Positions 10,833 through 64,000 of a DNA stretch of 64,000 bases are shown here, piece by piece; within the stretch, counting starts at the first letter, position 1; every line of letters begins with the position of its first letter. The DNA is from Pilatotrama ljubarskyi (lineage: Eukaryota; Basidiomycota; Agaricomycetes; Polyporales; Polyporaceae): NCBI GenBank assembly GCA_022385805.1, contig MU277685.1, positions 186,001-250,000 on the forward strand. Reading direction: 5' to 3'. The position numbers and the translations under genes were made by a program. The notes under the pieces were generated by a model. That model saw nothing but the letters and a program-made list of their open reading frames with translations, was not told the origin of the DNA and did no database searches.

Positions 10833-13800
10833 AGGACGAGGGGAGGGTGAAGGGGAACGCGTCCAGTTAAATGGGGGATAAAAAGTCTAGTCGGAGGTAT
10901 TAGCAGGCGCTGCGAGAGCTGGAGCGGGGCAAAGAAGGGAGTGTTAGAATGGATCGGCGACGTAGGTGGTACGAGGGAAAAACAGCGGTGGAGCAACCGG
11001 CCGACGAGCGTACCTGGCAGCGAGCCCGCGTGAAGGGGGCGTAGAGTTTGTCTATAGGGGAGTGCTGAAGGAGGGCGGGGCGGGCGCGGTTGAATGCGCC
11101 GTTGGGCGGGACGCCGTGGAAGACGATGAGGGCGTCAGCGACGGGGACAGCGGGGAGGGGGCGAGGGCGTGGGGGATGGGGACGGAGGAAGGGAGGTGGG
11201 ACGATCGCGCGTCCAATTATTATACCCGCTAATATCGCATCAAGCCCTTTCCATTTCCGGCGTCGCACCCATAGCACCGACAGGCGCCCGCGTCCTCCCG
11301 AGTCCCGTCCTCCGAGTCCGACGCCGTCTGCGTCAACTCAGCCCGGCGACTTTGCTGTGGCAGGAGAATGCTCAGGAGTCCTCCGTGACCGGGATCAGCC
11401 TCTTGTTGCGGATCGTCCGAGTTCCTGCCGGCCAGCATCTGACTGCGCCTGCTATTGTGCACCCCGTATTGTCTTCTGCTCGTCTCTCACCTCCGTCTTC
11501 ACTTCGCCAGGTCAGACCACCCCCTCAGGAGGCCGTCTAAAACTAGCGCAAGTTCTGCCTTGTTCTGTAAGTACCACATACGACACCGTCAATGTTCTCC
11601 GACCGCACCGCTGCACCCTGCCGGCGCCTCGCTGTCCGAGCATGTCGTAGGCGCCCTAGACCGCACCCTGTGCACTCCGCCCTCCCCGCCGACTCCCCGG
11701 CTTTAGGATGCAGCTGTCTGCCATCCATGACCGGCGCGCATCCCTCGCTGCATACCGCCCGTTAACCGTCCGTGCGACATAACAATGGGTGCTAACTTCC
11801 ACGTAGCACGCCTCGAGGAGCGGGGCTAGCGCTCCCGTCACACCCGAAATACTTTCCCAAATCAGGTACGCAGCTGCAACTGTCGTACCTTATCCAACAG
11901 GACCCGCAGGGTGAACGATGGCACGGCAGTGCGACCCCGTTCGTCATCCATGTCTTCATCATCCTCGCTCATCGTCCTCAGCCTCGACCAGGCCCGCAGG
12001 CTCTGTCCCGCAGATCGTCCTGTGGAAGGACGTCGCCCACCTGCAAGCCCGATCGTATGCGCTCTACAGCCGCGGCAAGTCGTCCTATCGCGCTCGTCGT
12101 ATCAACTCAATCCGAACCCAACCGCGATATGGCTCGAGCATCTCAGTTCCAGGAAGCCTCGCCAATGCAGGCGCAGCGCCGGCTAATCGCTGAGTAGCAG
12201 AAGCATCTACGCCGGGCTTCCACCTGCAAATTCGCCATGGCCGTGGCCACCTCTCACGCCCACGGCTCCGGTTGTTCGCTTCTCTCGGCCCACGACGACT
12301 TCCTGCCCCTTGCTCCCCGAGAAGGGTCGTACGACTGCTCCTTCTGCTTCCGCCAGTCTTCCAAGTGTACGAGTGTACTCCGACTCGCAGCGTAAAGCGA
12401 CTCATAAGACGCACGCAGGCGTTCCGTTGCCACCGTACAATTGATCGAGACCCTGCAGACGGCGCGAGATGATCATATTCAGAGACGCGGACATTGTCCA
12501 GAGAGGAACGAACGCTTCGCCCAAGTTCTGCGTCAAACTCTAACAGCCTCGGTACCTACCGCGTCTGCGTCTACACTAGCGCTCAGTGCTCGCTGTGCAA
12601 TCACTGCGTCTTGGCCGCCCCCTTGCAGTCCACCGCAGATGTCCGCCGTGCGGCTGCGACCCTCCGACCAACCACAGTGGAAGCGAACACCACCTCTCAC
12701 CCGTCGGCTCGGTCCCGTGTACGCACCCCAGGACCCTGCATCCCTTCAGGACGTAAAGCCAAACGGCGCCATGCTCGCGCTAAGCATCGCGCGCATGATA
12801 GCGTTCTCGCTCCCCGCGTCCCCATCTGTACTGCACCGTGCTAGCCCATAGAGGCAAGCGCAGGCCGGAGGGGCGGGGGCGGGAGCTCTTGCTCGGTTTT
12901 GGTAGGGTTTGGTGCGGATGGCGGAGTTGCGGACCCACACACGCCTACAACGCGGGGTGCCTTGTTGCCTTGTGATCATCGAGCATCGGCATCGGCTTGG
13001 AGGAGCGAGTCACGAGTCGGGGACCGCCATGAGTCCTTACGCCGTGGGCGAGTGTGGCTGCTAGCACTTATGAGAGGTGTGGCAGATTGTTAGCTCTATG
13101 TCCGAGCGTCGTACCTGACGAGTGCGTGGCCGGTCCGTTAGATACTCTCCAGCCTTCTGGCGTCGATTCTCCCTGCCGGTACTGGACCACGCTGTGATAA
13201 TCCGCGCATGTGTTCTACAAGGCACGAACCCCGTCTTATTGCCGTAAAGCTCCATACTACTAGCGCAACACACGTGCAGACGCACCTGCGCCCTCCGCGT
13301 CCTAGCGTATCTGCATAACGTACGGCTGTGGTCGGACTATCAGCCACCGCGCCTTACGGCGGCCTATAGTGGGAGAGTAATCCAGTAGCGATATCGATGT
13401 GTGTGTAGCGAGAGAACTAAGAAGACGGTGAGGTGAGGTGGTTATCTGCAGTCTGTGTGGGTAGAATTCGAAGGACCCGCCGCTTCCCGCTAGTGGACGC
13501 TAGCCCTCGGGGTAACGAGCTAGCTCGTACGTACTTGCCGTGTGGTATGACATATCTGACCCGTCATCCGCACCGGAAGATACGACCGTGTACGGTCCAT
13601 ATCTTCCCTCGGATCGCCTTTGAGCGATGCTCCGCAGATGGCTTGGTGATAAAGCGACATTCCGCCACAAGCAGCAGGGTCGTGGGCGGACATCGAGGTC
13701 CTCATTCATGTCGGCCGAGATCCAACGTCGAAGAGACCGCGCTGAGGTACCCCAGACCTTCGAGTTGGGTCACTTCAAGGGGAACCATGGTCTGCGACGC

Positions 13801-26769: not shown

Positions 26770-27717
26770 CAGCTGTTTGCAAAACGATAGACCACGCGGG
26801 CCCGCCGCGAGCGGGCGTGCCTTGTTTGGCCACCTTCCCCAAAGGGCAGGTTTCGGCGCCAAACCAGTGCCCGGCGCGTCAAGGCGCATGAGCGTGTGCG
26901 ACACGTTGGCAACGACACACTCGTTCCACAACTGAGTAAATAGGCGTGTGCAATCGTAGAGCCACTGAGGATGAGCAGAAAGAGGGTGTCCTGACCATGG
27001 ACTATGCACCTGACAGCGAAGGAGATCGCAAACGGGGTCACGTGACATGTACTAGCGCGCGGGCTTTCCGGGGAGTCCGCAACTTACTACAGAGTCCTTC
27101 GGACTTACGGGGAAACTGGCCGTAAGTAGGCCCAGCGTCCGCTGCAAACTGGATACTGCAGCCCCGTGCTTGTACGGACAGAGATGCGCAGTCTGTAACG
27201 CTAGCGGTATGCGCTTGAGCAAAAACAATGGCAGTATGTGTGTGTGAGCTAGTACCGTAAGAGTCAAGGGTCGTATCTCAACCAGACCTATCGATGACAA
27301 CGAAGGTCCCGATATTGCACAGTAGAGACTACTCCTTAGGGGACCTTCGGAATGCGATTCCTGTTGCGAAGTGCTTCGGGACGCCGTTTACTTGGGTATA
27401 CACCTGTGAACTGGAGAACCTCAAGAATAATGCACACATGCTGGTTACGTTCACTATGCTTTTGAGGAGTAGCATCATTGACAGTTACAGCCCATACGCA
27501 CTAGCTCATCACAAAGTCAACCACTCTGTTTCGCATCATGTACAGGAATGTCGTCTGGACGAGCCCTTGGACACCTCTCGGACATGCTTGATGCGCCTTG
27601 GCCCTCGGCGTGCCGGGCACTGGTTTGGCGCCGAAACCTGCCGTTTGGAGAAGGTGGCCAAACAAGGCACGCCCGCTCACGGCGGGCCCGCGCGGTCTAT
27701 CGTTTTGCAAACAGCTG
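26770..27717. repeat. 948-bp element bounded by 106-bp inverted repeats
   Basis: The 106 bp at 26,770-26,875 recur in inverted orientation at 27,612-27,717 with about four mismatches, counted by eye. Both outer ends begin CAGCTGTTTGCAAAACG. Similarity continues a little further inward, with a gap, to the shared block around AAGGCGCAT. The 736 bp between the arms hold no recognisable transposase. No clear target-site duplication is visible outside the arms. The arms could be the terminal repeats of a non-autonomous DNA transposon, or two inserted copies of one repeat in opposite orientation. Confidence 0.6.
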
Positions 27718-27732
27718 GAAGGTGGCCATATA

Positions 27733-28001
27733 CTGTACTTCCCAGACGTTAGGCGAAGCGATGTAACCCTAGATTAGGGCGTGGGAAGGGGAGACTAGGC
27801 GATGAGTGCCCGGGGACATGGGGACACAGGCGATACGATTGGCTCAGGACACCATAGGCGCCCGTTACCTGACAGAATTACCAAATACGGTAGGGGAGGC
27901 GTAGGCGATGGGTGGCCGCGGACATGGGGACAAGCGCCCATATAGGCGATGCGACGGAGGCCAGGGGACAGGGGACATCGCCTAACGTCTGGGAAGTACA
28001 G
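27733..28001. mobile_element. 269-bp MITE with perfect 24-bp terminal inverted repeats and TA target sites
   Basis: The left terminus CTGTACTTCCCAGACGTTAG at 27,733 and the right terminus ending CTAACGTCTGGGAAGTACAG at 28,001 are perfect inverted repeats over 24 bp, and both are flanked by TA (27,731-27,732 and 28,002-28,003). That is the signature of a Tc1/mariner-superfamily MITE. The interior contains imperfect internal repeats built on GGCGATG and GGGGACATGGGGACA. It has no coding capacity. It lies 15 bp from the end of the larger inverted-repeat element and 136 bp upstream of the secreted-protein start, so it may form part of that gene's promoter. Confidence 0.85.
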
Positions 28002-28137
28002 TAAAGTGTACACGTCAGGATGCCGAGACCGCCGTACTAGCTTTCTCCATCTGCTATGCAGCCTTTCGACTCGTTCTCAGTCGTGGATCGACTCCACCAT
28101 TGCTCAATCTAGTCTATTCTTACCGTGTGTCACAGTC

Positions 28138-32026: not shown

Positions 32027-33713
32027 ACTGCGGAACCAGGACGGGTCAGTGAAGCACGACCCGGCTGAAGCACGACCCGGCTGATGGAGCGAACGCCCTC
32101 GCCAGCCGCACTACGCCCGACATCCGAGACGGCCAGAAACCACAGACCAAACCTTCGTCGGCGCTGCATCTGGACGGACATCGACGCGCGTGCGTCGACC
32201 GCCGCTGCGCCGACGTCCTTCTCGTCACGCGTGAGCGCGATCTGCGCCAAGGTTTCCCTGGGTCGGCACGACCTTCCCACCGCAGTCTCCGTTCGAATGA
32301 ACCCGAAGCAGAGCTTCGGATGGCCCTTGGGGCCCGCGAAGAGCCTTCCCTTCTGCGCAGCGCAGGGCGGTGGGTGCGCTCGAGGACAGGGGGAACGCCA
32401 GGCCTGCCACGGTCGGAAGCGCCAGAGTCAAAGCCGTACTACGAGTAGGTGGTAGATGTGCGTGCTGCGCGCTGGCCGGCCGATGGGAAGGTCAAGGGCT
32501 GTAGGTGGCGGGCTGCAATCTGCCAGGCTATAGGCTCCTAACGCCCGGCGCATCCAATGGAGGGGCGCGGATTCCCAGCCGGAGTCATCGACCGGGGAAC
32601 CTGGAGGGATGAGAGAAGGCCGATGGGCCTCCGAGTCCGACGACGACGCTGTAGCTTGTTGGGCGTTACCGCCGACGTGTGCGGGTGGATGTGTGCGCTG
32701 CTAACCTACGAGGAACGGAACCTAAGTCACCTCCAGCGTTGGACGGGAGAAGCAAGGCACGAACCGGGCGAATGCGTAGGTTCGAGCAGTCCGCATCGGA
32801 GGAAGGTGCTGGCGGTGTAGACTGGGCATCAGCGAAGCGGCGCCAGGCGTCTCGTCGTATGAATCTCTTGCTTACGCCCGAAGAGTCGGGATATCCAAGA
32901 GCATGGGGGTTGATGTCGATGATACAACGCTCGCCAGACCTATGGAAGCGATGCTCAGCGGTATATATGCTTGGCGGAAGGAGATGGCAGGCTCATGCGG
33001 TGCAAGCATCAAGTACAAATGGCTAGGCGTGTACAGGTTCTCCACAATGAGCGGTACAGGCGTGTATAAGTCGTGGACCGGGGCGATCGCGTTATTAGAC
33101 ACCTGCACAAGAGAACAGATATCCGCATGTCAAGGAGCTTCTATGTCGATGTATTACCTCGGATACTCTTGACATCAAGCGACGCTGCTGCCAGCGGCCT
33201 TGGCGGAGGAGATCCGTTGGCCACCATGTGCCGTAAGAGCGGTGTCGGTACAGCGTGGTACTCAAATTCACGCTACACTCAAATTCGTATTTCGGAGTCA
33301 GCGATCGCGCAAGGCAACGCTGCGAGGATTTAGGCACCTACCATGGTAGCGTCGCAGAGTGTTCGAGGATTGTATGCGGCACGAGGCAACGGTTTGAGCC
33401 GCAGCATTCCCGCGGCGCAGCGATTGATAGCCTTTCGTGCGGGTCCTTGTTCGGGGTGGCCATGGTGTCGAACGAAGAATGCCTAGACAAATATCGACGG
33501 CTTTCGGTGGTCATTGACCCGGACGCGCTGGAGGAGATCAACTTGGTATGCACATGGCAAGAACATGAACATTACGACGGAAAACAAGAAGCAGCTTGTA
33601 CGCTAGCTGATATGGTACACAAGTCCGGGTAACGCCCTCTCTCCGTGCTATCGTACATCGTCGGCGTCCTTCGTTTCGTACTGAATCGTGGAGCGGTTAT
33701 ACCCTCGCCACGA

Positions 33714-35131
33714 TCAGGGAGGCGGCTGGGGTGTGCTCTTCTCGCGATCTTCGCCTTCAGGCCCTCTGTTCGCGTCCGGCGCACCGGGGTCATCGTCGTC
33801 TTCGATCGTCTCCGGTAGTAAGCTGAAGCTGTCCGCCCGCGGTCGGGGCACCAGGACACCCGTCTCGGCGATGCGCGCCCCGCGCTCGACGCTCGCGCGC
33901 CGGCTGTGGCTCTGACCTGTGCTCATGCTCCGCAAGCTCCCCGTCTCGGCGATACGCCGCTCGAAGCTGCCGCGTCTGTGGAAGGAGTTCCGGCGGCTGT
34001 TGAATGACTCTACCGGCGACGGGGTGCCGTCATGGTCACGAGAATTGGAGGGAATCCCGACGGACTGATGAAGCGATGCGGCCGGCGAGCCGAAGGAGGA
34101 TGAAAGCGAAGGAGGCGGGACGAGGGGATACGAAAGCATGCGTGCCCCACCAACTGTGAACGCGGGTGGGCTGACCGCGACCGACGGTGGCGTCGTCATG
34201 TTCGTCGCGGCACTGGCATAGCTTGCAGGAAAGGGGGAGGTGGTGGCCGGAGAAAACGGGAAAGGAGACGTACTGGTCGACGACGGCGAATGCGAGAGAG
34301 GCGTAGTAGACTCTGAGGAGATTATGTTGGATGGTCGTCGGATCTGTGAAGCAGGGCGCGGTATGGGAACAGCTGAAGCCTGTCGGGATGCTTGTGCATG
34401 TGGGATATGAATCGAGCTAGAAGGCGAGCCAGACGTCGAGGAGGCGGATCGCCGGTGTGTCGGCTGGGAATATGGGTCGGACTGGTGCAATCCGATGAGG
34501 TTATCCACCGGAAGTCCAAGCTAGCGCACTGTTAGACGCAGAAGTGCACAATGGATCGGGGTACTCACTCGTCGTCGATGTTGGATGAGCTCCTCCCGGT
34601 AGACCTCGTTTAAGCGGGAAATTCTGATGAAATCCTGCTCTGTCTCGACGAGGCGATTCCTCAAAGCTTCGTTCTCTCTCCTCAGGGCATCGAGGATTGT
34701 GTCCGGGGCCGGGCCTGAGCCATTGACATTGAGCAAGTACCCAAGCTGCGGTCCTGCAGATCTTGCGTCATGCGGAGAAGCATTGCCGCTGCCGTTCGTC
34801 AGCGATGGTCCCGCCTGCTGTTGCTGTTGTTGTTGCTGGGCAAGGCGAAGGGCTGATATCTCCCTGGAGAGCCTGTTCACATGAGACTCGGACTCCTGCT
34901 CGAGGACGTTCTCGAGCTCGATTTTTTCCTCACGCAGCTAGGAAATCGTACGGTGGCGTACGTCAACTGAATGCACTGTCGGGCCAATAACCCAGTACGG
35001 CTCACCTGCTCCAACTTCCTGGAGAGGATGTTGATGATGCGCTCCTCCTCTGCCTCATACTGATATATCAGATCTTCGCGGCTGCTAGAACTCGTGGAGG
35101 AGAACCTGCGGATGGGAGGCGAGACAGACAT
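33714..35131 (-). CDS. CCDC6-like coiled-coil protein (DUF2046 family)
   Basis: Three exons, 35131-35006, 34937-34569 and 34520-33714, encode 433 aa. The start MSVSPPIRRFSSTSSSSRED is followed by a coiled coil: QYEAEEERIINILSRKLEQ continuing over the first intron as LREEKIELENVLEQESESHV and NRLSREISALRL. That last block is the conserved core of animal CCDC6. A nine-residue Gln run interrupts the helix, then a second helical segment DTILDALRRENEALRNRLVE, RISRLNEVYREELIQHRRR and LGLPVDNLIGL. The C-terminal half is Ser/Pro-rich and disordered with several basic-Ser motifs (RRNSFHRRGS, RRASVERG) that look like kinase sites. In animals CCDC6 is a nuclear and cytoplasmic scaffold linked to checkpoint control; the fungal role is unknown to me. 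Confidence 0.82.
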
Positions 35132-37365: not shown

Positions 37366-38963
37366 GCTTCCAAAGCTTAACCTGCGAGACCCATGTCCGA
37401 TAACCTGGCCCCGCCTTGTGTACGACCCCGACTCCGTCGCTTTGCACCCCGCTCTGCCGTGCCTGCTATGTATGTCAGATACCGCAACTGTCGTCCCTCC
37501 CCGAAGCTTTCTTGCATTGGCTTCAAAATGTATAATAGTGTCAGTCCGTCGTGGTACGCTTGTTTCAACCTAATACCTCCCTAAATCCTCTTACCCGTAG
37601 CATTCGAGTATACCAGCTCCTCTCATATCGGACTCGTTCGTGACTGTTCATTTGTATCTTGATATTTATGTAGCACAGTAGATAGATGCCCATAGTGGCC
37701 GACACATAGTTCATAACAAACCAGGATGGCCCGACGAGAACGCAGGCGAACTTGAAGCTGACAGGCAGTGCATGTTTAGTGGGCGCAAAGCACGCCCACT
37801 ACCCACGCGCTGCCACTCAGGTGCTCTCGGGAGAGCAAAGTAGCCATGCGCGTGCGGACTACGCGGAACGGAGGCGCCATGCAGAGGGAACATCTGCGGT
37901 TTGGCCAGCCCTCGTACATGCATGTGTATCCCGGTCATAGTCCACGACGGCTCGCCGGACGCTAGGATGCTGCCAAGAAAGCTCCTTTGAGACTTGTGAT
38001 AGAGATTGACATCGTTATGCGAATCGAAGAGCCTTGCACTATGCGGTATGGCATGAAGCACGAAGGCTGACTACCCGCTCAAGATGCAACGCCTGTGACC
38101 TGGCTAGAGAGCGGACAGACCCACCGTGTATCTAACCGTGAGATAGTCCTCTATGCTTGGGATGGTGCAGCGCAATCCTAGAACGAAATGTGAGGAGAGT
38201 TCAAGGCAAGGAGTGCACAAGAAGGAGACGCACTCAGGCTGGATGACTCGGCGAGGCGGAACCAGGGCGGGCGCTAAAGGATCAACGTTGGTTCGGCATT
38301 AGCCGAGCATGTACTGTGGCGCTTGTGGAAGCAGCGGTCGGACTGTACTGCGATACTGTGCTGTACTACCTTGACGGGTCTCTCTATTATGCTGCACCTT
38401 TCCTAGCACTCTGCGACCCACGGTTCCAATCAGATGAGCCAGTCGAGAGTATCATATCAACGTCAGGTGCCCGTACCATCTGATTCCATGCAGTGCGGAG
38501 TCGAGTTTGTCTGTACATTGAGCCTGAGGGGCATCGCAGCCATGCTTGCAAGTGGGCATACAGCAGCGTCTGTCGATACCCACACCAACGGTCATTCGCT
38601 CTTTCCGTTCTTTCAACATACGCGCATACCTTTCTGCTCGGACTGTGCAGCCTGATACACATACTCGACAGGTATAGACGAGCCTACACGCGTGATGCTC
38701 ACTTGCAGTCGACCCTTCACCTGACCGTGTGCGAGATGAAATACTACGAATGTCTGATCTACACGGCGTTCGCCTATGCGCTTATGGCGACAGATGGGTG
38801 CTTCGCGCCCCATCGGACCCTGTCCCGGGCAGCTGGTAGGATGCAATGTCGGTGTACGGTACACAGGGCACATGGGAACTCTGAATGACCGAACCCCTCT
38901 TCTTCCGCGTTCACCGGTATAAATCCCCTCTCACGCGCCCTCCTCCTCCATCCTACGCCCCCC
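37366..38963. other. Intergenic, no supported gene
   Basis: 1.6 kb between HSP20 and the P450. Only short frames with no motif. Several CTGTACT/GTACTGT-type pentamers occur at 38,310-38,375, reminiscent of the MITE terminus, but no inverted-repeat pair could be assembled. Confidence 0.4.
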
Positions 38964-56000: not shown

Positions 56001-58079
56001 GATCACACCGCCCTGGAGGAGGTCACGCTCCGCAACAGTGTAAGCGACAACGGGCGGTGCTCACGTTGTAATCCAGACAAGCGTTCACGAACTTCTCGTA
56101 TAGCGTCGGCCGACTGTGTCGTAGTCAATGCCACGACGGAGACGACATGGCGCGAAGGTCAACCTACCTTCCCTTCAGATTCGAGAAGCTGTAGAGCGTG
56201 TTGATAGAGACCTCGTCGAGGTACCTCATAGTCAGCAGCAACCGATCTGTCCACGAGACCTCGTCGATCTCGCCCCCCTTTGATGAGGAGGATGTAGGCA
56301 GGGAGGGAAGTGGGAGTATATAGTCCGCCAGCGTCTGCTCCGCGACGGCTCTGCATCGATGTCAGCGGTCGTAGCTACCCAGGAGACGGCGATGAGGCAT
56401 ACTTTACTTCGCGGCTTACCGAAGCACTTCGAAGGACCGTCCCTGGTATCCACGCAAACTGCTGAATCGCAGCGGGGTCGTTGTTCTCACTGACCTACCG
56501 TCAGACCTGGACAAGTCCGACAGAGTGGGGATACACCTACATCTCGGGATAGGCAAGGCTATACAATCGTCCTATTGCGTGGAACGCCTCGTTCCGAACG
56601 CTTTGCTGGGGAATTTCATAGGATAAGCTGGAAAGTATAGCTCGCCGGGCAAAGACTGACCTTCTTGTCGAGGCCGCGGCCGGCGATAGCCTTCAGGAGC
56701 TCGACCGAGACGTGATGTAGTGCCGTCTCGTAGTCGATCTGGGTGAAGAGCTTGCACACGGCCGCACGTATCTTCTCATCGGGGTCCAACAACTTCGCAT
56801 CGAGCGCCGCTGGGTCCCAAGCATCAGCGGGTGCGCCCCGACCCACGGTCGCCGCGCTCGCTCACCTTCGGTCTCCTTGCGCACCTCCGGAAGGTTGGTG
56901 ATGATACCCTTCATAGTCTCGATCCACTCCAGCCGCACCGTCACGTTCTTGTCGTTCCTGCGGGCCAGCCACTGCGCCCACGTCGCGGGGTACTTCTGCA
57001 CGAGGTCCAACCCGTGCTTGTCCGCGAACATCTCGCCGAGCGTCTTGGTCGCCATGAGACGGAGCTGAATTTGCTCGACGCGGAGCTCCTCCTCGAGCTG
57101 GGGGACGACGTTGTGGAGGAGAGACGGGCACGCGCGGTTGAGCTGCACGATGAGGCCGTGTGCGGTTTGCACCTCTTCGTACCGCTCCTCGCGCGCCTGG
57201 TCGACGATGATGTCGGTGAAGTACTGGCAGACGTGCCGCTGCAGCTTGTCGGCGGTCGCGTTGCACACCTGGACGGCGAGACGGTATGCGGGCTGGTCCA
57301 TCCTCTGCGGTCATGATGTCAGTAAGGGCATCACTCGAGTGGTCGGTATCGCCGTGGGGAGCACTGTGGTCTCTTGCGTGGGTGATTGTCTGACCTAACC
57401 CAGCCACGATGCCGGCGTGGCGCACCCACCCACCCAGACCATAGCAGAGACTCACCGCGTTCTTGTCCATGAACTGAGCCATAATGATCTCGAGGACCTC
57501 CGAAGGCAGGCTCTGGCACTCGTCTATGAGGGCGATGAGGATGTCGGCCATGAAGAGCTCGATCTTCTTTGCGAGGTCGCGGCGGACGAGACCAAAGAAG
57601 TCGCGGAAGATGTCGACCATGAGGTCGTCGCCGTTGGGGAGGTCGCAGACGAGGACGACGCTCTTGACGGTGGAGAGGGACTCGAGGAGGTGAAAGTACT
57701 CGTTGTAGTAGGGCGAGTCGGGGCCCTTGAGGCCGGTGGTGAGCTGCCGGAAGAAGAACTGGAAGATGTCGCGGAGCTCTGCCTGGGTGTAGGGCGCGTC
57801 GGGGGCGTAGAGACGGAGGAGGTCGGCGAGACAGCAGGCGGCGTAAGCCTTGACGCCGCGGTCCTTGTGGAGGAGGATGGAGGGGTTGATGAGCTCCTTG
57901 CGGACGTGGTTGAGGGAGGGGACGTCGACGTGCTCCTGGTCCATGTCTGCGAGCTCGTGGTGGAGGGCCTTGAGTTTCTTGAGGAGAGCATCTGTCGCGA
58001 GGCCTTTTCCGACGAGTTTGTCGCGGAATCTGAGTTTCGTGGGCGAGGGCTGCCCGTGTGTACGCGTCTGGGCGACCAT
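53010..58079 (-). CDS. PDS5: Sister-chromatid cohesion regulator Pds5
   Basis: HEAT-repeat regulator that binds cohesin on chromatin. Starts MVAQTRTHGQPSPTKLRFRD at 58,079; the first exon runs to 57,456 (208 codons) and ends FMDKNA before a GTGAGT donor. Conserved opening: KGLATDALLKKLKALHHEL, RKELINPSILLHKDRGVKAY, CCLADLLRLYAPDAPYTQAE, SPYYNEYFHLLESLSTVKS. The next exon begins RMDQPAYRLAVQVCNATADK, and the HEAT array continues through many exons (EELRVEQIQLRLMATKTLGE, RNDKNVTVRLEWIETMKGI). The C-terminus is acidic with an AT-hook-like basic patch (RRGRPPKKRKMEESDDEESQ), and ends KQAKRAAKRQAKAAASDD. Internal junctions between 53.5 and 56.9 kb were not all resolved. The first exon plus upstream region is duplicated at 62.45-63.26 kb. 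Confidence 0.93.
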
Positions 58080-58266
58080 GCTCGCGTGTGGCGGACGACC
58101 GAGTGCGAGATTCAGAATATTCAGACTCGGTGAGAGCGCGTCGCGCGTTGTTTGGCCCTGTTTGCCCCGCCCTCTCCGCCACTGTACTGTACTGTACTGT
58201 ACAACGGTGCCAGTGCTGGATTCCCTCCGTCTGCACTCGCTCGCCGCTCTCGCCCGTGCTTCCGCC
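57456..58266. repeat. Inner copy of an 810-bp direct repeat (PDS5 exon 1 plus promoter)
   Basis: This segment recurs in the same orientation at 62,451-63,258, offset 4,992 bp at the upstream end. Comparing line by line I count about ten substitutions and one 3-bp difference, roughly 98-99% identity. It contains the entire first PDS5 exon and the 187 bp upstream of the PDS5 start, including four tandem ACTGT pentamers at 58,181-58,202. Identity stops abruptly within the base composition CTTNCGCC, at the position equivalent to the base before the NAA15 ATG. Confidence 0.93.
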
Positions 58267-58495
58267 CCGCCACTCAAAGTAAGCCGCATCAAGGGCGTCG
58301 TCGCTCCCTTTCCGCTTACCCAACGTTTCAACGCCTGCAGCCTCGCAGTAATCGCGTGCGAGAACGAAGCTTGTAGTGCACACGTGAACCAGGAGGGTGA
58401 GTCTCGGTTTTTCGCACGTATTGGGCCAATCTGATCAAGTATCATCTCTCTCTTCTGACCCTCTACCGATTGTATCGACCTCTCTTTCGACCGTC

Positions 58496-61400
58496 ATGTC
58501 CCAACAGACATCTGCGTCCGAGCAATACTCAGAGGTGGGGCGCCAAGCACACTCCCCATCGACGACCGCGGCTCATCCAGAGTAAGCCGTTGGATGTCTA
58601 TCACTCGGGCAGGCTGCAACTAATTGTCCTTTTAGTCCTGACGCAACCGTGATCCGGTCGCGCACTCCTCCCGGACAGACGGGACAAGCATCAGTCACGT
58701 ACGTCTTACCCTGCTGGGTTCTCCGAGTGTCGCTCGTTCTCTGACTCCAGTGCCACTTCCTAGTGCACTTCTCGACGCCGATACCCCTTGGCAAGAGCGC
58801 AGCGCACCTCGACACGCACGCTCTTCGTTCCCGGCTATCAGGGAGGAACTAGCGTATACCATGATGCCCGACATACTGGAAGGTCCAGCATCTAGCTGGC
58901 TGCAGTGCTACACGTCGAACTGCGTCAGCGAAGAGCAGGTGGAGCGAATCATATCGTCTCTCAAGGACGAGGGGCTCGTTTTGGATCACGAAGGCACTCT
59001 TAGATGGAGGGATTTTCCGGACAAGCCATCCGCCCTACGTTACCCGAAGAAGGCGAATCAGCAGTCGACGGGTAAGAAGGATGCTTCAGCGACGACAGAA
59101 ACCGCTAGTAGCAGCATGGCGACAATGATGCATGCGGCAGCTCAGGAGCCTGCTGGACGAAACAAGACCGAACGCGCCGTATTTCGATCTCTCGGCACCA
59201 TCATCAACACTATCGTCGAAAACTCTCCTCCCAACCTCTCACCCTCTGTCAGATACAAGGAGGAACCATACGCCACGGACTCGGAGATATCTGGATCTCA
59301 GCACCACGTTGACGGTGCCCTGCGGCTCCTCAAATCCACGACGCCCCCTACTCTGACACGCTCGACAGCGGCGACATCGGATATCGTCCTGTGCTTCGAA
59401 TTCAAATGCGAGGCCGTACCTGAGAATATCAACGATGTGAGTTTCTCTCATAGGCGTCCTTTCGAGGCATCAACTGATGAAGCCATGCTCAGAACCGTTG
59501 GAAGGCGCTTTACTTTGCTTTCCATGCTCTGCACTCGGATTGTCAGCGCAAACATACGTACAGCGTGCGCAGGTTAATACATTGTGTACCGCGCGAAATG
59601 CTGACAAAATTCGTCGCAGATCACCATTGAAGACAACCACGTGTCTTTGTGGTATTTCTCTCGTTCGCACTCAGCCAAGTCACAAGAGTTCGATTTGCTG
59701 GTACGCTTCGTATACGACTTCAAGCTCCCTGTATCTGGCTCTTTGTGCTGATCGGGAGTGGCAGGACGTCCGCGCTGTTGTGCGCGCGCTTTCCGCTCTT
59801 ATCTTCTCCAATGTCGAGGATCTCGGGTACGACGCCAACATCAGGCGGATTTCCGAATGGGATGAGGACGCCCAAAAAGTCCAATTACGCTATGTATACC
59901 GCCTCGACAATCGCTTCTTCAAGACCCTGAAATGCCGCGACGAGTACGACGACCTGTACATCATCGGCAGGGCCACCCGAGTGTGGGAGGTCATTGAGGT
60001 TACCAGCTTCGATGACATCGCTCCCCTCGCTAAAGCGCAACGCACGATCTTGAGAGACGTCTGGCTCGGACATGACAGCGACACGGAGCGCGAGATCCAG
60101 GAGAAGATCTTCGCGCGCTGCGACGAGCTCGGAAGAAATCTCCCTCTCGAGAACGATCCACGGCTATGCGGTGTCGACGAGGCGACCAGGACGCTCCTGC
60201 GCGAGCGCCTGAAGGATGGGTCTTATAAGAACCTCTTCCTAACCATCGAGGCGGACTACCGAGGGGCATTGTCGAGGCCTCCTGCGGAAGGATTCACTCC
60301 CGCGCCTTACATATTCAGCGAACCTGTGTATCTCAATCAGGAAGCAAAGCAGCGTGGCGCCGACCCGTATCGAGGGTCGACGTCTCGTGCTAACTCGATC
60401 GCTACCGCGGCCATCCGCTCCCTGCCCCCGCCCAGCATGCCTCGCGAGTACAAACCGAGACAACGTAACTTTGTCGTGTACCAAGAAGTGTGCTCTGCAT
60501 TGCACGAGCTCGACGACTTGTACGATGTCGTGCAAGCCCTGCTAGATGCACTGCTGGGTACAGTCTAATCACGATGTTTTCTGCCTCATCGCGCTGACGT
60601 CTCCATGCTTCAGCACTTCAAATCTTGTTTCTCATCTCCTGGATCCATCGTGACGTTAGCTCGGGCAATATCCTTTCATTTATGCGTCGCGGGAATTTGA
60701 GCGATCTCGAATACGCGAAGGAGTTCAACTTATCGGTAGGAGGGCGGTCATCGGATCCTAAGACGGTACGTTCACTCAATAGGTGGCATGATCAACGAGA
60801 TGAATGGTATTGCAGGGGACCACGATTTTCATGGCTTGGGAGGTCTATTCCAGCACATCGATTCACAAGGACAAGGAGGCGGATGATCTCGATGATACGG
60901 AGGCTAACGACGCGCAGGAGACCCCTGATACTTCGCTCCGTCACAACTTCCAACATGATCTGGAATCCATGTTCTGGATTTTGACTTGGCTTGTTTTCAC
61001 CCATATTCCTGGACAGGATTGCGCGGAAACTATCGTCGAGCTGTTTCATAGCAGGAGTCCTCGCTTCAGTATAGCTCGACTGGACTTCCTCACCGATCAC
61101 AAGCGTTGCAAGAAGCGGCTCGGAAGCCTCCGACAAGATCTGCCTCCCGTCATACGTGCGGGTTTGCTTACGATGCGTGTCGCCCTCCACAATGGCTACC
61201 TCCAACGCGGGACGTCAATTGGTGACATGTCATCTTACTCTCCCATCTACGGCCAGTTCCGCAACATACTGGAGACCATCGCCGCCTCGGTACCGCGGGG
61301 CACGGTGAAACTCGTACGGCCCCGCCCCCCGTGGTAGGCGTGAGGTCTGGCTATGCTCCTCGCACGGAGACCTTGTATGCGAAGGAAGGATCCCCCGAGG

Positions 61401-61513
61401 ACACGATGTTGGCTCCACACAAGGCCGCGTCTCTGAAGCGCGCACGAGGAGCCTCGGACGCGGACAAAGTCGGCGACGAGTCTCCAGCGGGCAAGCGTCC
61501 TGCGCGTGAATGA
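58496..61513 (+). CDS. FunK1-type fungal protein kinase
   Basis: Fungal-specific kinase-like family, greatly expanded in agaricomycetes, of unknown substrate. Start MSQQTSASEQYSEVGRQAHS at 58,496; several exons. N-terminal region: SSWLQCYTSNCVSEEQVER and FRSLGTIINTIVENSPPN; then SGSLCADREWQDVRAVVRA; the regulatory block VQLRYVYRLDNRFFKTLK, EVIEVTSFDDIAPLAKAQR, LRDVWLGHDSDTEREIQEK. Catalytic loop WIHRDVSSGNIL (HRD..N present), DFG-equivalent SDLEYAKEF, then GTTIFMAWEVY and HDLESMFWILTWLVFTH, all hallmarks of FunK1. One frame ends at 61,337; a spliced continuation to 61,513 would add a basic Ala-rich tail with KRARGASDADKVGDESPAG, common at FunK1 C-termini. Its start lies 416 bp from the PDS5 start, head-to-head, and the gene is bracketed by the PDS5 5' direct repeats. 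Confidence 0.9.
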
Positions 61514-62450
61514 AGTGAGTCCGTTCTACATAGTTCTATCTCGCGCTGCCAGATCCTGATGCCATGTGCCGCGCTGAAGGACGCTTGCGCGTATGACGTG
61601 GCGCGCCCACCCTGCGTTGAACGAGGATTCTGTCTGGAATGAACTATACCGCCGCTCAATATATCAACGATTGGTTTGTCATTGGTGTGTGAGGACGAAG
61701 GTAGATCGAAGGCGGTGAGGATCGGGGAATGATTTGATCTCCAACAAAGCGACGCCGTCGCTGCTCGCTGCAAACGAGCAGCTCGGCAGGCTCGCACATA
61801 GTCAGCTCCTCAGGCCTTCCGCGAGCGTTCTGAGACGCAGGCTTCCTCGCGACTCGCCTGCAACGAAAAGATGCTGTCGCCGCTCCCTGCAATAACTAGT
61901 CAGCCCCTCTCGCCGTCCTCGAGCTTTCGTCGCTCCCGGCTCCTTCACGCCTCGCCTCTGCCGCCGTGACCGCGGCCGGTCCGCCCAAGTTCCGCTGCAG
62001 CCAGAGCAGAGTCGAAAGTGTCCCGGACGTCTTCAACATTCATACCATCTTGTCCCGAAGCCGTAGAGACGTGCAATGTACATTTGATACATTGGATTGC
62101 GTCGTAACGTATACATTAACCTACTATACCGGCACACGCTCGCAGCCGCCGCGCACCAACCCAATCCAACCCAAGACATGATTAGCGTAAAACGACATTC
62201 AGAATGCAGCACCAGACGGGAAACCGTAGCAGTAAAATCAAAGGTGATGCAGAGCAGAGAGACAAGATGGCCGTGTGTGTGTTAGATAGCGCGGCGTACA
62301 GCGAGTGACTGGCAGCCTGACTACGGCTTGAGCGCAGTGTTGTGTTCTCCCGCGCAACCGGATGGCGAGGTCTGCCCCGACAACCCACACTCACTTGGCC
62401 ACAGCGCCGGCGTGGCGCGCGGACCGAGACAGACTGAAGCGAGTACTCAC
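61514..62450. other. Intergenic between FunK1 and the PDS5 fragment
   Basis: No supported gene. The last roughly 80 bp (62,370-62,450) are faintly similar to PDS5 intron 1, sharing the GTGAGT donor and a GCGCCACGCCGGC block, so the duplication edge seems to decay into the intron. The rest shows only short frames. Confidence 0.45.
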
Positions 62451-63071
62451 CGCGTTCTTGTCCATGAACTGCGCCATAATGATCTCGAGGACCTCGGAGG
62501 GCAGGCTCTGGCACTCGTCTATGAGGGCGATGAGGATGTCGGCCATGAAGAGCTCGATCTTCTTTGCGAGGTCGCGGCGGACGAGACCAAAGAAGTCGCG
62601 GAAGATGTCGACCATGAGGTCGTCGCCGTTGGGGAGGTCGCAGACGAGGACGACGCTCTTGACGGTGGAGAGGGACTCGAGGAGGTGAAAGTACTCGTTG
62701 TAGTAGGGCGAGTCGGGGCCCTTGAGGCCGGTGGTGAGCTGTCGGAAGAACTGGAAGATGTCGCGGAGCTCTGCCTGGGTGTATGGCGCGTCGGGGGCGT
62801 AGAGACGGAGGAGGTCGGCGAGACAGCAGGCGGCGTAAGCCTTGACGCCGCGGTCCTTGTGGAGGAGGATGGAGGGGTTGATGAGCTCCTTGCGGACGTG
62901 GTTGAGGGAGGGGACGTCGACGTGCTCCTGGTCCATGTCTGCGAGCTCGTGGTGGAGGGCCTTGAGTTTCTTGAGGAGAGCATCTGTCGCGAGGCCTTTT
63001 CCGATGAGTTTGTCGCGGAATCTGAGTTTCGTGGGCGAGGGCTGCCCGTGTGTACGCGTCTGGGCGACCAT
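62451..63071 (-). pseudogene. PDS5: Truncated duplicate of PDS5 first exon
   Basis: Reads MVAQTRTHGQPSPTKLRFRD onward, nearly identical to the intact PDS5 first exon, but 207 codons instead of 208 (one Phe of FFFRQL lost) and with a Val-to-Ile change in DKLIGKG. It keeps the GTGAGT splice donor after FMDKNA. Downstream there is no second PDS5 exon: the frame runs through intron-like sequence to a stop at about 62,391 (ending ARHAGAVAK). A complete Pds5 needs more than 1,000 further residues, so this is a stub. It could still be transcribed, since its promoter is also duplicated; a roughly 230-residue N-terminal fragment is conceivable but unproven. Confidence 0.88.
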
Positions 63072-63258
63072 GCTCGCGTGTGGCGGACGACCGAGTGCAA
63101 GATTGAGAATATCCAGACTCGGTGAGAGCGCGTCGCGCGTTGTTTGGCCCTGTTTGCCCCGCCCTCTCCGCCACTGTACTGTACTGTACTGTACAACGGT
63201 GCCAGTGCTGGACTCCCTCCGTCTGCACTCGCTCGCCGCTCTCGCCCGTGCTTTCGCC
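62451..63258. repeat. Outer copy of the direct repeat (PDS5 exon 1 plus promoter)
   Basis: Partner of 57,456-58,266. It ends at 63,258, immediately before the NAA15 start codon at 63,259, and carries the same four ACTGT pentamers (63,173-63,194). In this copy the segment between the PDS5 ATG (63,071) and the NAA15 ATG is 187 bp, short enough to act as a single bidirectional promoter. Confidence 0.93.
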
Positions 63259-63652
63259 ATGGCCCCCACCGCCGGCCCCCCCTCTCGCGCTCTGCCCTCC
63301 AAGGAGTCTGCGCTCTTCAAGGAGGTCCTCCACTACTACGAGGACAGGCAGCTCAAGAAAGGCCTCAAGACCGCAGACACCATCCTCAAAAAGTTCCCCA
63401 ACCATGGCGGTACGCATCCCTGCGTATATGCGTCGTGTGATCGCTCATGTGTCCCCAGAGACGCTATGCATGAAGGGACTCATCCTCACCCACATGGGTC
63501 GCCGCGAGGAGGGCTTCGAGCTCGTCAAGCAGGGCGTCCGCCTCGACCTCACCTCTCACATATGCTGGCATGTATTCGGCCTCATCCAGAAGGGCCAGAA
63601 GAACTACGAGGAAGCGCTCAAGTCGTACACCCAGGCACTTCGATTTGACAAG
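63259..63652 (+). CDS. NAT1: NatA auxiliary subunit Naa15/Nat1, 5' end only
   Basis: Auxiliary, ribosome-anchoring TPR subunit of the NatA N-terminal acetyltransferase. Exon 1 is 63,259-63,409 (MAPTAGPPSRALPSKESALF, then KEVLHYYEDRQLKKGLKTAD, ILKKFPNHG); exon 2 is 63,459-63,652 (ETLCMKGLILTHMGRREEGF, RLDLTSHICWHVFGLIQKGQ, NYEEALKSYTQALRFDK) and ends at a good GTGAGT donor. The first two TPRs are intact and highly characteristic. The next expected exon, which in this family continues with an Asp-Asn-rich start of the third repeat, is not visible in the remaining 348 bp, although introns here are usually 50-70 nt. The gene may have an unusually long intron, or this may be a truncated copy. Confidence 0.85.
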
Positions 63653-63795
63653 GTGAGTTAGTCCGATGATTATACGCGTACACTTGTGCCCTCTCTCGGC
63701 GATCGCCTCTGCATAATCGGCCCGCCGTCCAATAGGCTGCTTCCCTCCTGCAGACGTGCACCGGACCACCGTCGATCCTGCATGCTACGCTCCCG

Positions 63796-63999
63796 CTACA
63801 GCAGGGCTCTGGCCTGACCGTGCGCAACATCTCTCGGCTCGATGACGAAGGCTTGCTCGGACGATGCGTCCAGTTGCATCCTGGTCCCGTAGAACCAGAA
63901 GAGTCCAATCCCTGCCTCTCCCCCGAAGGATAGGGAGAACACATTGTATGGATGCAGGTAGACCTGTGAGAGCCTTGCGCCTGTATGCGGTATAGCATC
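63796..63999 (-). CDS. Possible exon of an unrecognised gene entering from the right edge
   Basis: From the window edge a minus frame reads ARLSQVYLHPYNVFSLSF, GGEAGIGLFWFYGTRMQL and SEQAFVIEPRDVAHG before a stop at 63,798-63,796. It alternates hydrophobic and aromatic residues like a folded beta-rich domain and is unrelated to Naa15. A splice acceptor (CTCTCACAG) precedes VYLHPY and a donor-like GTCAGG follows AHG. If real, a gene on the opposite strand occupies the place where NAA15 exon 3 is expected. Confidence 0.35.
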   Translation of the reverse strand, partial: DAIPHTGARLSQVYLHPYNVFSLSFGGEAGIGLFWFYGTRMQLDASSEQAFVIEPRDVAHGQARALL

Positions 64000-64000
64000 A

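Follow-up and report, generated by a model that had tools for sequence, protein, structure and literature searches.

A 64,000-bp window of the basidiomycete Pilatotrama ljubarskyi (positions 186,001 to 250,000 of contig MU277685.1, here C16) carries a complete FunK1 kinase gene set between two direct copies of a host sequence, namely, the first exon of PDS5 together with the 187-bp intergenic stretch that separates PDS5 from NAA15. A paralogue of this kinase on another contig, C118, is newly recognized here as being bracketed likewise, by a different host fragment. Our preferred reading, which we place slightly on the probable side, is that the locus arose by copy-and-paste insertion of kinase DNA through template switching during replication or repair, with re-copying of the target flank, i.e., a “cycle of templated insertions” in which no classical transposon took part.

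The genome searched comprised 33.1 Mb in 173 contigs, the window being part of a contig of 524,643 bp. BLASTN of the window against itself aligned positions 57,411 to 58,266 with 62,406 to 63,258 on the same strand, with 97.1% identity over 857 columns. Base-by-base alignment of the core of this repeat (811 bp for the left copy, R1, and 808 bp for the right copy, R2) gave 11 substitutions and one 3-bp gap, which bears out the initial annotation that the first PDS5 exon and its promoter region are present twice in the same orientation. Six of the substitutions lie in exon 1 (five synonymous and one replacement, V23I) and five in the intergenic part, while the gap corresponds to one codon absent from the right copy. 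The exon-1 splice donor marks the exact start of the core, and the last core base is base −1 relative to the NAA15 start codon; what is duplicated, in direct orientation around the kinase gene, hence comprises PDS5 exon 1 and the entire 187 bp between PDS5 and NAA15. A genome-wide DNA search found these two copies of the PDS5 repeat and no further one, and within the examined part of contig C16 (93 kb) no other direct repeat reaches 200 bp. PDS5 is encoded on the minus strand and NAA15 on the plus strand. Their ancestral order was presumably head-to-head with the start codons 187 bp apart, because R2 stops one base before the NAA15 ATG (63,258/63,259) and holds the PDS5 start at 63,071.

The gene between the repeats was modeled by hand from GT-AG borders and paralogue proteins, which gave 813 codons without interruption and seven introns. 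The PF17667 (Pkinase_fungal) profile matches it over domain positions 19 to 387 of 387 (1.5e-37; 129.7 bits versus a curated cutoff of 24.1), so that the presence of a complete FunK1 gene at this site holds on closer inspection. The model contains the motifs IHRDVSSGN, DLEYAK, and FMAWE, with the HRD..N, D-L-E, and MA-E patterns in place; we take these to be catalytic-loop and metal-binding kinase motifs, with predicted roles accordingly. Since introns are kept in the gene model, an mRNA-derived retrocopy is ruled out. In a six-frame scan of the insert (58,267 to 62,405; E value of 0.01) PF17667 was the only Pfam family found. The 606-bp filler between the kinase unit and R2 (61,800 to 62,405) matches nothing else in the genome, the neighboring PDS5 DNA included; nor does it hide an extension of the repeat, no residual homology to PDS5 DNA at 56,500 to 57,410 being detected (the score was reached by 94 of 200 shuffles). 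The last exon differs in frame from the C118 and C39 paralogues near 61,314 to 61,325, and the protein tail ends about 61 amino acids early. This shortening was traced to a length difference in a C-rich run at that position, either a real change or a sequencing error.

On contig C118, the bracket consists of positions 33,694 to 34,102 and 38,079 to 38,494, a direct repeat of 416 bp with 95.4% identity. It is unrelated to the C16 repeat and, apart from one contig start, occurs nowhere else in the genome. On our reading, with a Pfam match just upstream, it is probably derived from a Mem_trans transporter gene, of which it comprises the final exon and the 3′ flank. Both inserts have a unit of about 3.52 kb in common (C16 58,277 to 61,799; C118 34,514 to 38,078; 83% identity overall). 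At C16, 10 bp separate the left limit of this unit from R1, and at C118 its right limit directly abuts the right repeat (0 bp). Unique filler is found on opposite sides, 606 bp at C16 and 411 bp at C118, and the C118 filler showed no residual homology to the DNA beyond the C118 right repeat (30 of 200 shuffles reached the score). The unit has no terminal inverted repeats, the best alignment of its terminal 100 bp being reached by 155 of 300 and 145 of 300 shuffles. Copies of the whole unit with both ends were found twice in the genome, at C16 and C118.

The contig start mentioned above belongs to C152 (26 kb), which begins inside the C118 right repeat (C152:1-333 versus C118:38242-38574, 333 bp at 99.7% identity) before diverging; the first 1,167 bp after the divergence are found nowhere else in the genome. 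This start may reflect a break in the assembly, a second haplotype, or a further copy of the repeat, and the assembly is ambiguous beside the C118 repeat.

DNA and protein searches identified five loci of the kinase subfamily (C16, C118, C39, C116, and C45), within a wider FunK1 family of at least 122 matching stretches in the genome. Outside this species, Trametes cingulata, T. sanguinea, T. maxima, and Lenzites betulinus have relatives of the window's kinase. The C39 locus has no bracket within the 19 kb examined, and the unit ends differ there; at C116, a contig end about 1 kb from the kinase cuts off the flank. C45 was considered as a third bracketed case and dropped, its repeat (190 to 459 and 11,679 to 11,925, 82% identity) being a dispersed sequence resembling a long terminal repeat (LTR). 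This LTR-like repeat, of about 256 bp, has 43 matches in the genome. Thirty FunK1 pieces with 1.5-kb flanks, some of them overlapping, contained no internal repeat of >50 bp, flanks of this size being too short to reveal an arrangement of the C16 type, and one 8-kb FunK1 locus (C36) contained no direct repeat. In all, the long stretches examined (188 kb, i.e., five regions plus the 8-kb locus) yielded as direct repeats of ≥200 bp only the two brackets and the LTR-like pair of C45.

Table 1. Coordinates of the features at the PDS5/NAA15 junction (window positions)
Feature	Position	Strand	Remarks
Left direct repeat R1 (PDS5 exon 1 + 187-bp intergenic stretch)	57456..58266	-	Diverged homology runs on into the intron to 57,411
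PDS5 exon 1, predicted working copy (PF20168), 624 nt	57456..58079	-	Splice donor GTGAGT at 57,450-57,455; joined to remaining PDS5
Left PDS5/NAA15 intergenic copy (presumed bidirectional promoter), now upstream of kinase	58080..58266	.	Putative promoter activity
10-bp spacer between R1 and shared kinase unit	58267..58276	.	Matches neither
Kinase unit, common to C16 and C118 (34514-38078) from end to end; 83% identity overall	58277..61799	+	60,775-60,936 unaligned by BLASTN
FunK1 kinase gene, 8 exons, 813 aa	58496..61337	+	Exons 58496-58581, 58636-58698, 58764-59436, 59493-59564, 59620-59700, 59765-60557, 60614-60765, 60816-61337
Filler between right end of unit and R2	61800..62405	.	Genome search
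Diverged piece of PDS5 intron 1 adjoining second exon copy	62406..62450	-	Alignment
Right direct repeat R2: PDS5 exon 1 copy 62,451-63,071 (one Phe codon absent) + intergenic 63,072-63,258	62451..63258	-	BLASTN and alignment
NAA15 start (NatA auxiliary subunit; PF12569 further on)	63259..64000	+	Runs past window end

The coding stretches of NAA15 are about 460 bp apart (window position 63,653 to approximately 64,110, past the window end), a long gap compared with the introns of the kinase model, which measure roughly 50 to 65 bp; a search with nearly all of the NAA15 gap sequence showed it to be single-copy in this genome. Elsewhere in the window, an inverted repeat of 115 bp with 94% identity is formed by 26,770 to 26,884 and 27,603 to 27,717, with a further 26-bp inverted match nearby (27,731 to 27,756 and 27,978 to 28,003).

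The two copies of PDS5 exon 1 are not equivalent. The left one is in frame with the remaining PDS5 and is, judging by its reading frame, the working exon, and the right one is one codon short in the FFF-RQ stretch. To place this difference, the length of the stretch was checked among the best 120 of 294 homologous proteins found in a search of other genomes, one of the 120 being the window's own, leaving 119 for comparison. The stretch had the same length as in the left copy in all 110 homologues caught by the search pattern; nine of the 119 were missed by it, and one of these (P0135) proved to be of the same length when read directly. A corresponding polarity is observed at C118, where the host-attached copy is intact and open and the other carries a 2-bp insertion before the stop codon.

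Beyond the exon, the right copy retains the splice donor, behind which lie some 60 bp of diverged intron and, further on, unrelated DNA. The copies differ at 11 of 808 positions (1.4%) over exon and intergenic stretch, while in the adjoining intron (about 55 to 60 bp) only 36 of 60 positions are identical, a difference of 40%; the homology is nonetheless clear, none of 20,000 shuffles having reached the alignment score. Such a sharp drop of identity at the exon/intron border suggests gene conversion ending at the donor site or, alternatively, a patchy repair joint, because with a recent duplication alone, intron and exon should be equally alike. The initial annotation had attributed the high identity to a recent event or to ongoing gene conversion; the second explanation thus gains a sign in its favor, and the first would hardly suffice by itself.

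The kinase itself is a mosaic. When it was compared with the C118 and C39 paralogues in 150-bp steps, the block at 58,313 to 58,722 proved C118-like (96 to 98% identity) and that from 58,723 to about 60,220 C39-like (93 to 99% in nine of 10 steps, 82% in the remaining one). Positions 60,223 to 60,522 are nearer to C39, at just 84 to 87%. The following block, 60,523 to 61,271, is unlike either paralogue (59 to 81%), whereas C118 and C39 agree with each other there at 85 to 92%. The sequence is again nearer to C39 at 61,272 to 61,420 (90% versus 85% for C118) and nearer to C118 from 61,421 onward (94, 91, and 86%, versus 90, 77, and 45% for C39). Site counts agree with the step scan for both the C39-like block and the unplaced block. 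Either template switching during insertion or later gene conversion would produce such a mosaic.

A further peculiarity concerns the C-terminal lobe (C-lobe) of the kinase. Between C118:37065-37570 and the minus strand of C39, the paralogues of window positions 60,816 to 61,310, there are 54.6 replacement versus 4.4 synonymous changes. In this C-lobe part of the last exon, the synonymous divergence (dS) is 0.040 and the nonsynonymous divergence (dN) 0.160, a ratio of 4.04 (Fisher P = 8e-4); the neighboring catalytic-loop exon of the same pair has a ratio of 0.10, and the intron between them differs at two of 48 positions. The pattern tentatively points to diversifying selection on the C-lobe, the part expected to meet substrates. 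Weighing against this, the ratio for the whole last exon is 1.87 (P = 0.051), the 3′ untranslated region of the C118/C39 pair differs at 14 of 149 positions, and the tail has a dS of 0.149; chance may thus account in part for the low C-lobe dS. The region was, moreover, chosen after the alignment had been seen, as one of 17 region-by-pair values computed (nine plus eight, overlapping); two of them, the first-block values involving C39, have no validity, since the C39 paralogue is out of frame in that block. Compared with the C16 gene, the first large exon of this paralogue is some 25 bp shorter and has lost its frame, and the corresponding NCBI model (P0001) starts further downstream. If upheld with more sequences, fast change of the C-lobe would indicate a conflict-driven function.

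Under the templated-insertion reading, synthesis would have left the PDS5/NAA15 junction, copied kinase sequence located elsewhere in the genome, and then re-entered the junction upstream of the point of departure, so that some 810 bp of the target would have been copied twice and would bracket the insert. As the whole intergenic stretch would have been doubled in the process, PDS5 would retain one copy and NAA15 the other, with the kinase placed downstream of the side that once faced NAA15. The left copy would then have persisted as the working PDS5 exon, and the right one would be a decaying fragment homogenized, now or until recently, by gene conversion. The kinase occupies the former place of NAA15 relative to the intergenic stretch, and capture of the NAA15-side promoter is a clear prediction of this arrangement. 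A target-insert-target order in which both neighbors are kept and the donors are copied has the topology known from cycles of templated insertions, and it differs little from a tandem duplication with an insertion at the joint.

One proposal of the initial annotation, that a kinase-bearing segment was inserted and a long part of the target flank duplicated, fits the finding that PDS5 exon 1 and the NAA15 start have been left whole and is strengthened by the second, independent case at C118. The wording “cargo”, if taken to mean the load of a classical mobile element, is not supported, as there are no terminal inverted repeats and PF17667 stands alone in the insert.

Several observations weigh against template switching as the whole explanation. 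By eye, no microhomology is visible at the two abrupt junctions, one of which has 10 bp of filler and the other nothing, and the shared unit ends of C16 and C118 are tidier than template switching requires. Neither the block at 60,523 to 61,271 nor the two fillers have a close source in the assembly. The bracket is present in two of the five subfamily members, the same two (C16 and C118) that have complete shared ends. Divergence is also uneven, at 1.4% in the repeat, about 3% in the 5′ block, about 3 to 4% in most of the middle, and 6 to 14% at the 3′ end, with identity of 84 to 87% at 60,223 to 60,522. To account for this unevenness, a single event would have to have been followed by conversion or selection, and the mosaic could be the work of conversion alone.

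The same final order would be obtained if each host segment had first been duplicated in tandem and kinase DNA had been captured later at the joint, a dispensable place between complete genes. Such a sequence of events would account for the filler and for the unequal lengths of the repeats (about 810 and 416 bp), and the intron of the right C16 copy is far more diverged than the exon, as if the duplication predated the last homogenization. It would, however, require the same two-step coincidence twice, and direct repeats of ≥200 bp are scarce, the 188 kb examined containing just the two brackets and the C45 pair. In a simulation with uniform placement, chance bracketing of a kinase had probabilities of 0.059 and 0.060 for the two brackets, rough values given that the gene limits are approximate and the windows were chosen around kinases. 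We regard the tandem-first order as a less probable account, albeit one with some weight.

More doubtful is the idea of the kinase as a discrete mobile unit, about 3.5 kb long, that inserts whole and generates very long target duplications of 400 to 850 bp. The coincidence of the ends at two unrelated loci (within 10 bp on the left, 0 bp on the right), each with its own flank duplication, is what such a unit would produce. It would nevertheless have to move without terminal inverted repeats, and the six-frame Pfam scan of the insert revealed no family of transposases, integrases, or reverse transcriptases; both ends were found in two copies of the unit, with filler on opposite sides and duplications of unequal length. 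Least probable of all, and in our view quite improbable, is an assembly artifact in which two haplotypes of a dikaryon were joined end to end and the repeat represents two alleles: divergence of 1 to 5% would fit alleles and the C152 start reveals ambiguity beside the C118 repeat, but the junctions are internal to contigs of 524,643 bp (C16) and 58,703 bp (C118) with no N in the stretches examined, the second copies are damaged (at C16, a codon has been lost in frame from a stretch of constant length; at C118, the frame is broken), and the false join would be required twice, each time around the same kinase. No statement on the ploidy of the genome or the sequencing method emerged from the literature listings searched or from the mentions of the species in PMC10354095.

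Returning to insertion by template switching, the occurrence of the same architecture at two independent loci provides a concrete, testable route by which FunK1 genes could spread, i.e., duplicative insertion with re-copying of the target flank. The arrangement explains how two basic genes set 187 bp apart could receive an insertion between them without harm, and the duplicative-insertion reading predicts the existence of strains with and without the insert. One may go further and picture the subfamily as a gene-sized mobile unit (3.5 kb, with fixed ends) that is pasted between housekeeping genes, duplicating several hundred target bases so that the neighbors remain unharmed and the kinase gains an active flank, its substrate-facing lobe being reshuffled between copies and diversified by selection as in an arms race (defense, self-recognition, or a selfish gene); we offer this extended picture as speculation and consider it unlikely.

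Compared with known systems, the C16 and C118 inserts share with classical transposons and LTR elements the appearance of a discrete unit with direct repeats on both sides. Transposon target duplications usually measure from a few bases to about 20. Here, in contrast, the flank duplications span 857 and 416 columns and are thus neither short nor constant, there are no inverted repeats, and no enzyme family was detected; with respect to the transposase, a nonautonomous element remains compatible with the insert scan. The repeats at C16 and C118 are different host sequences, unlike those of LTR and Penelope elements, which bring the same repeat to each insertion. A case of this type is the Penelope-mediated gene mobilization described for Adineta vaga, in which an intron-containing member of an expanded family was likewise copied between direct repeats and spacers of captured host DNA also occur; according to the portion of that report used here (PMC3846280), the repeats belong to the element and the target duplication is 8 bp, whereas at our loci the repeats are host sequence and differ by site.

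As for the kinase family, FunK1 genes are described as lineage-specifically expanded in Paracoccidioides and enriched in nonsyntenic regions, with a function still to be elucidated (PMC3203195). The C16 gene conforms to this family (PF17667) in its nearly full-length domain match and in the large number of relatives in its genome. In the part of the Paracoccidioides report drawn on here, the expansion is put down to general lineage-specific duplication, with no description of bracketing by host-gene ends or of mosaic members (PMC3203195), and titles and abstract openings of the open-licence literature yielded no report of FunK1 genes bracketed by host duplications. A further parallel is provided by the cycles of templated insertions (PMC7025897), in which copies taken from elsewhere are lined up within a single locus and flanked on each side by a host segment that has been replicated again. 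Those cycles are described from somatic cancer genomes; the present event would be an inherited fungal one, of which the end product alone is seen, with no known source for part of the insert. At two loci, C16 and C118, the insert likewise has a copy of the same host segment on either side.

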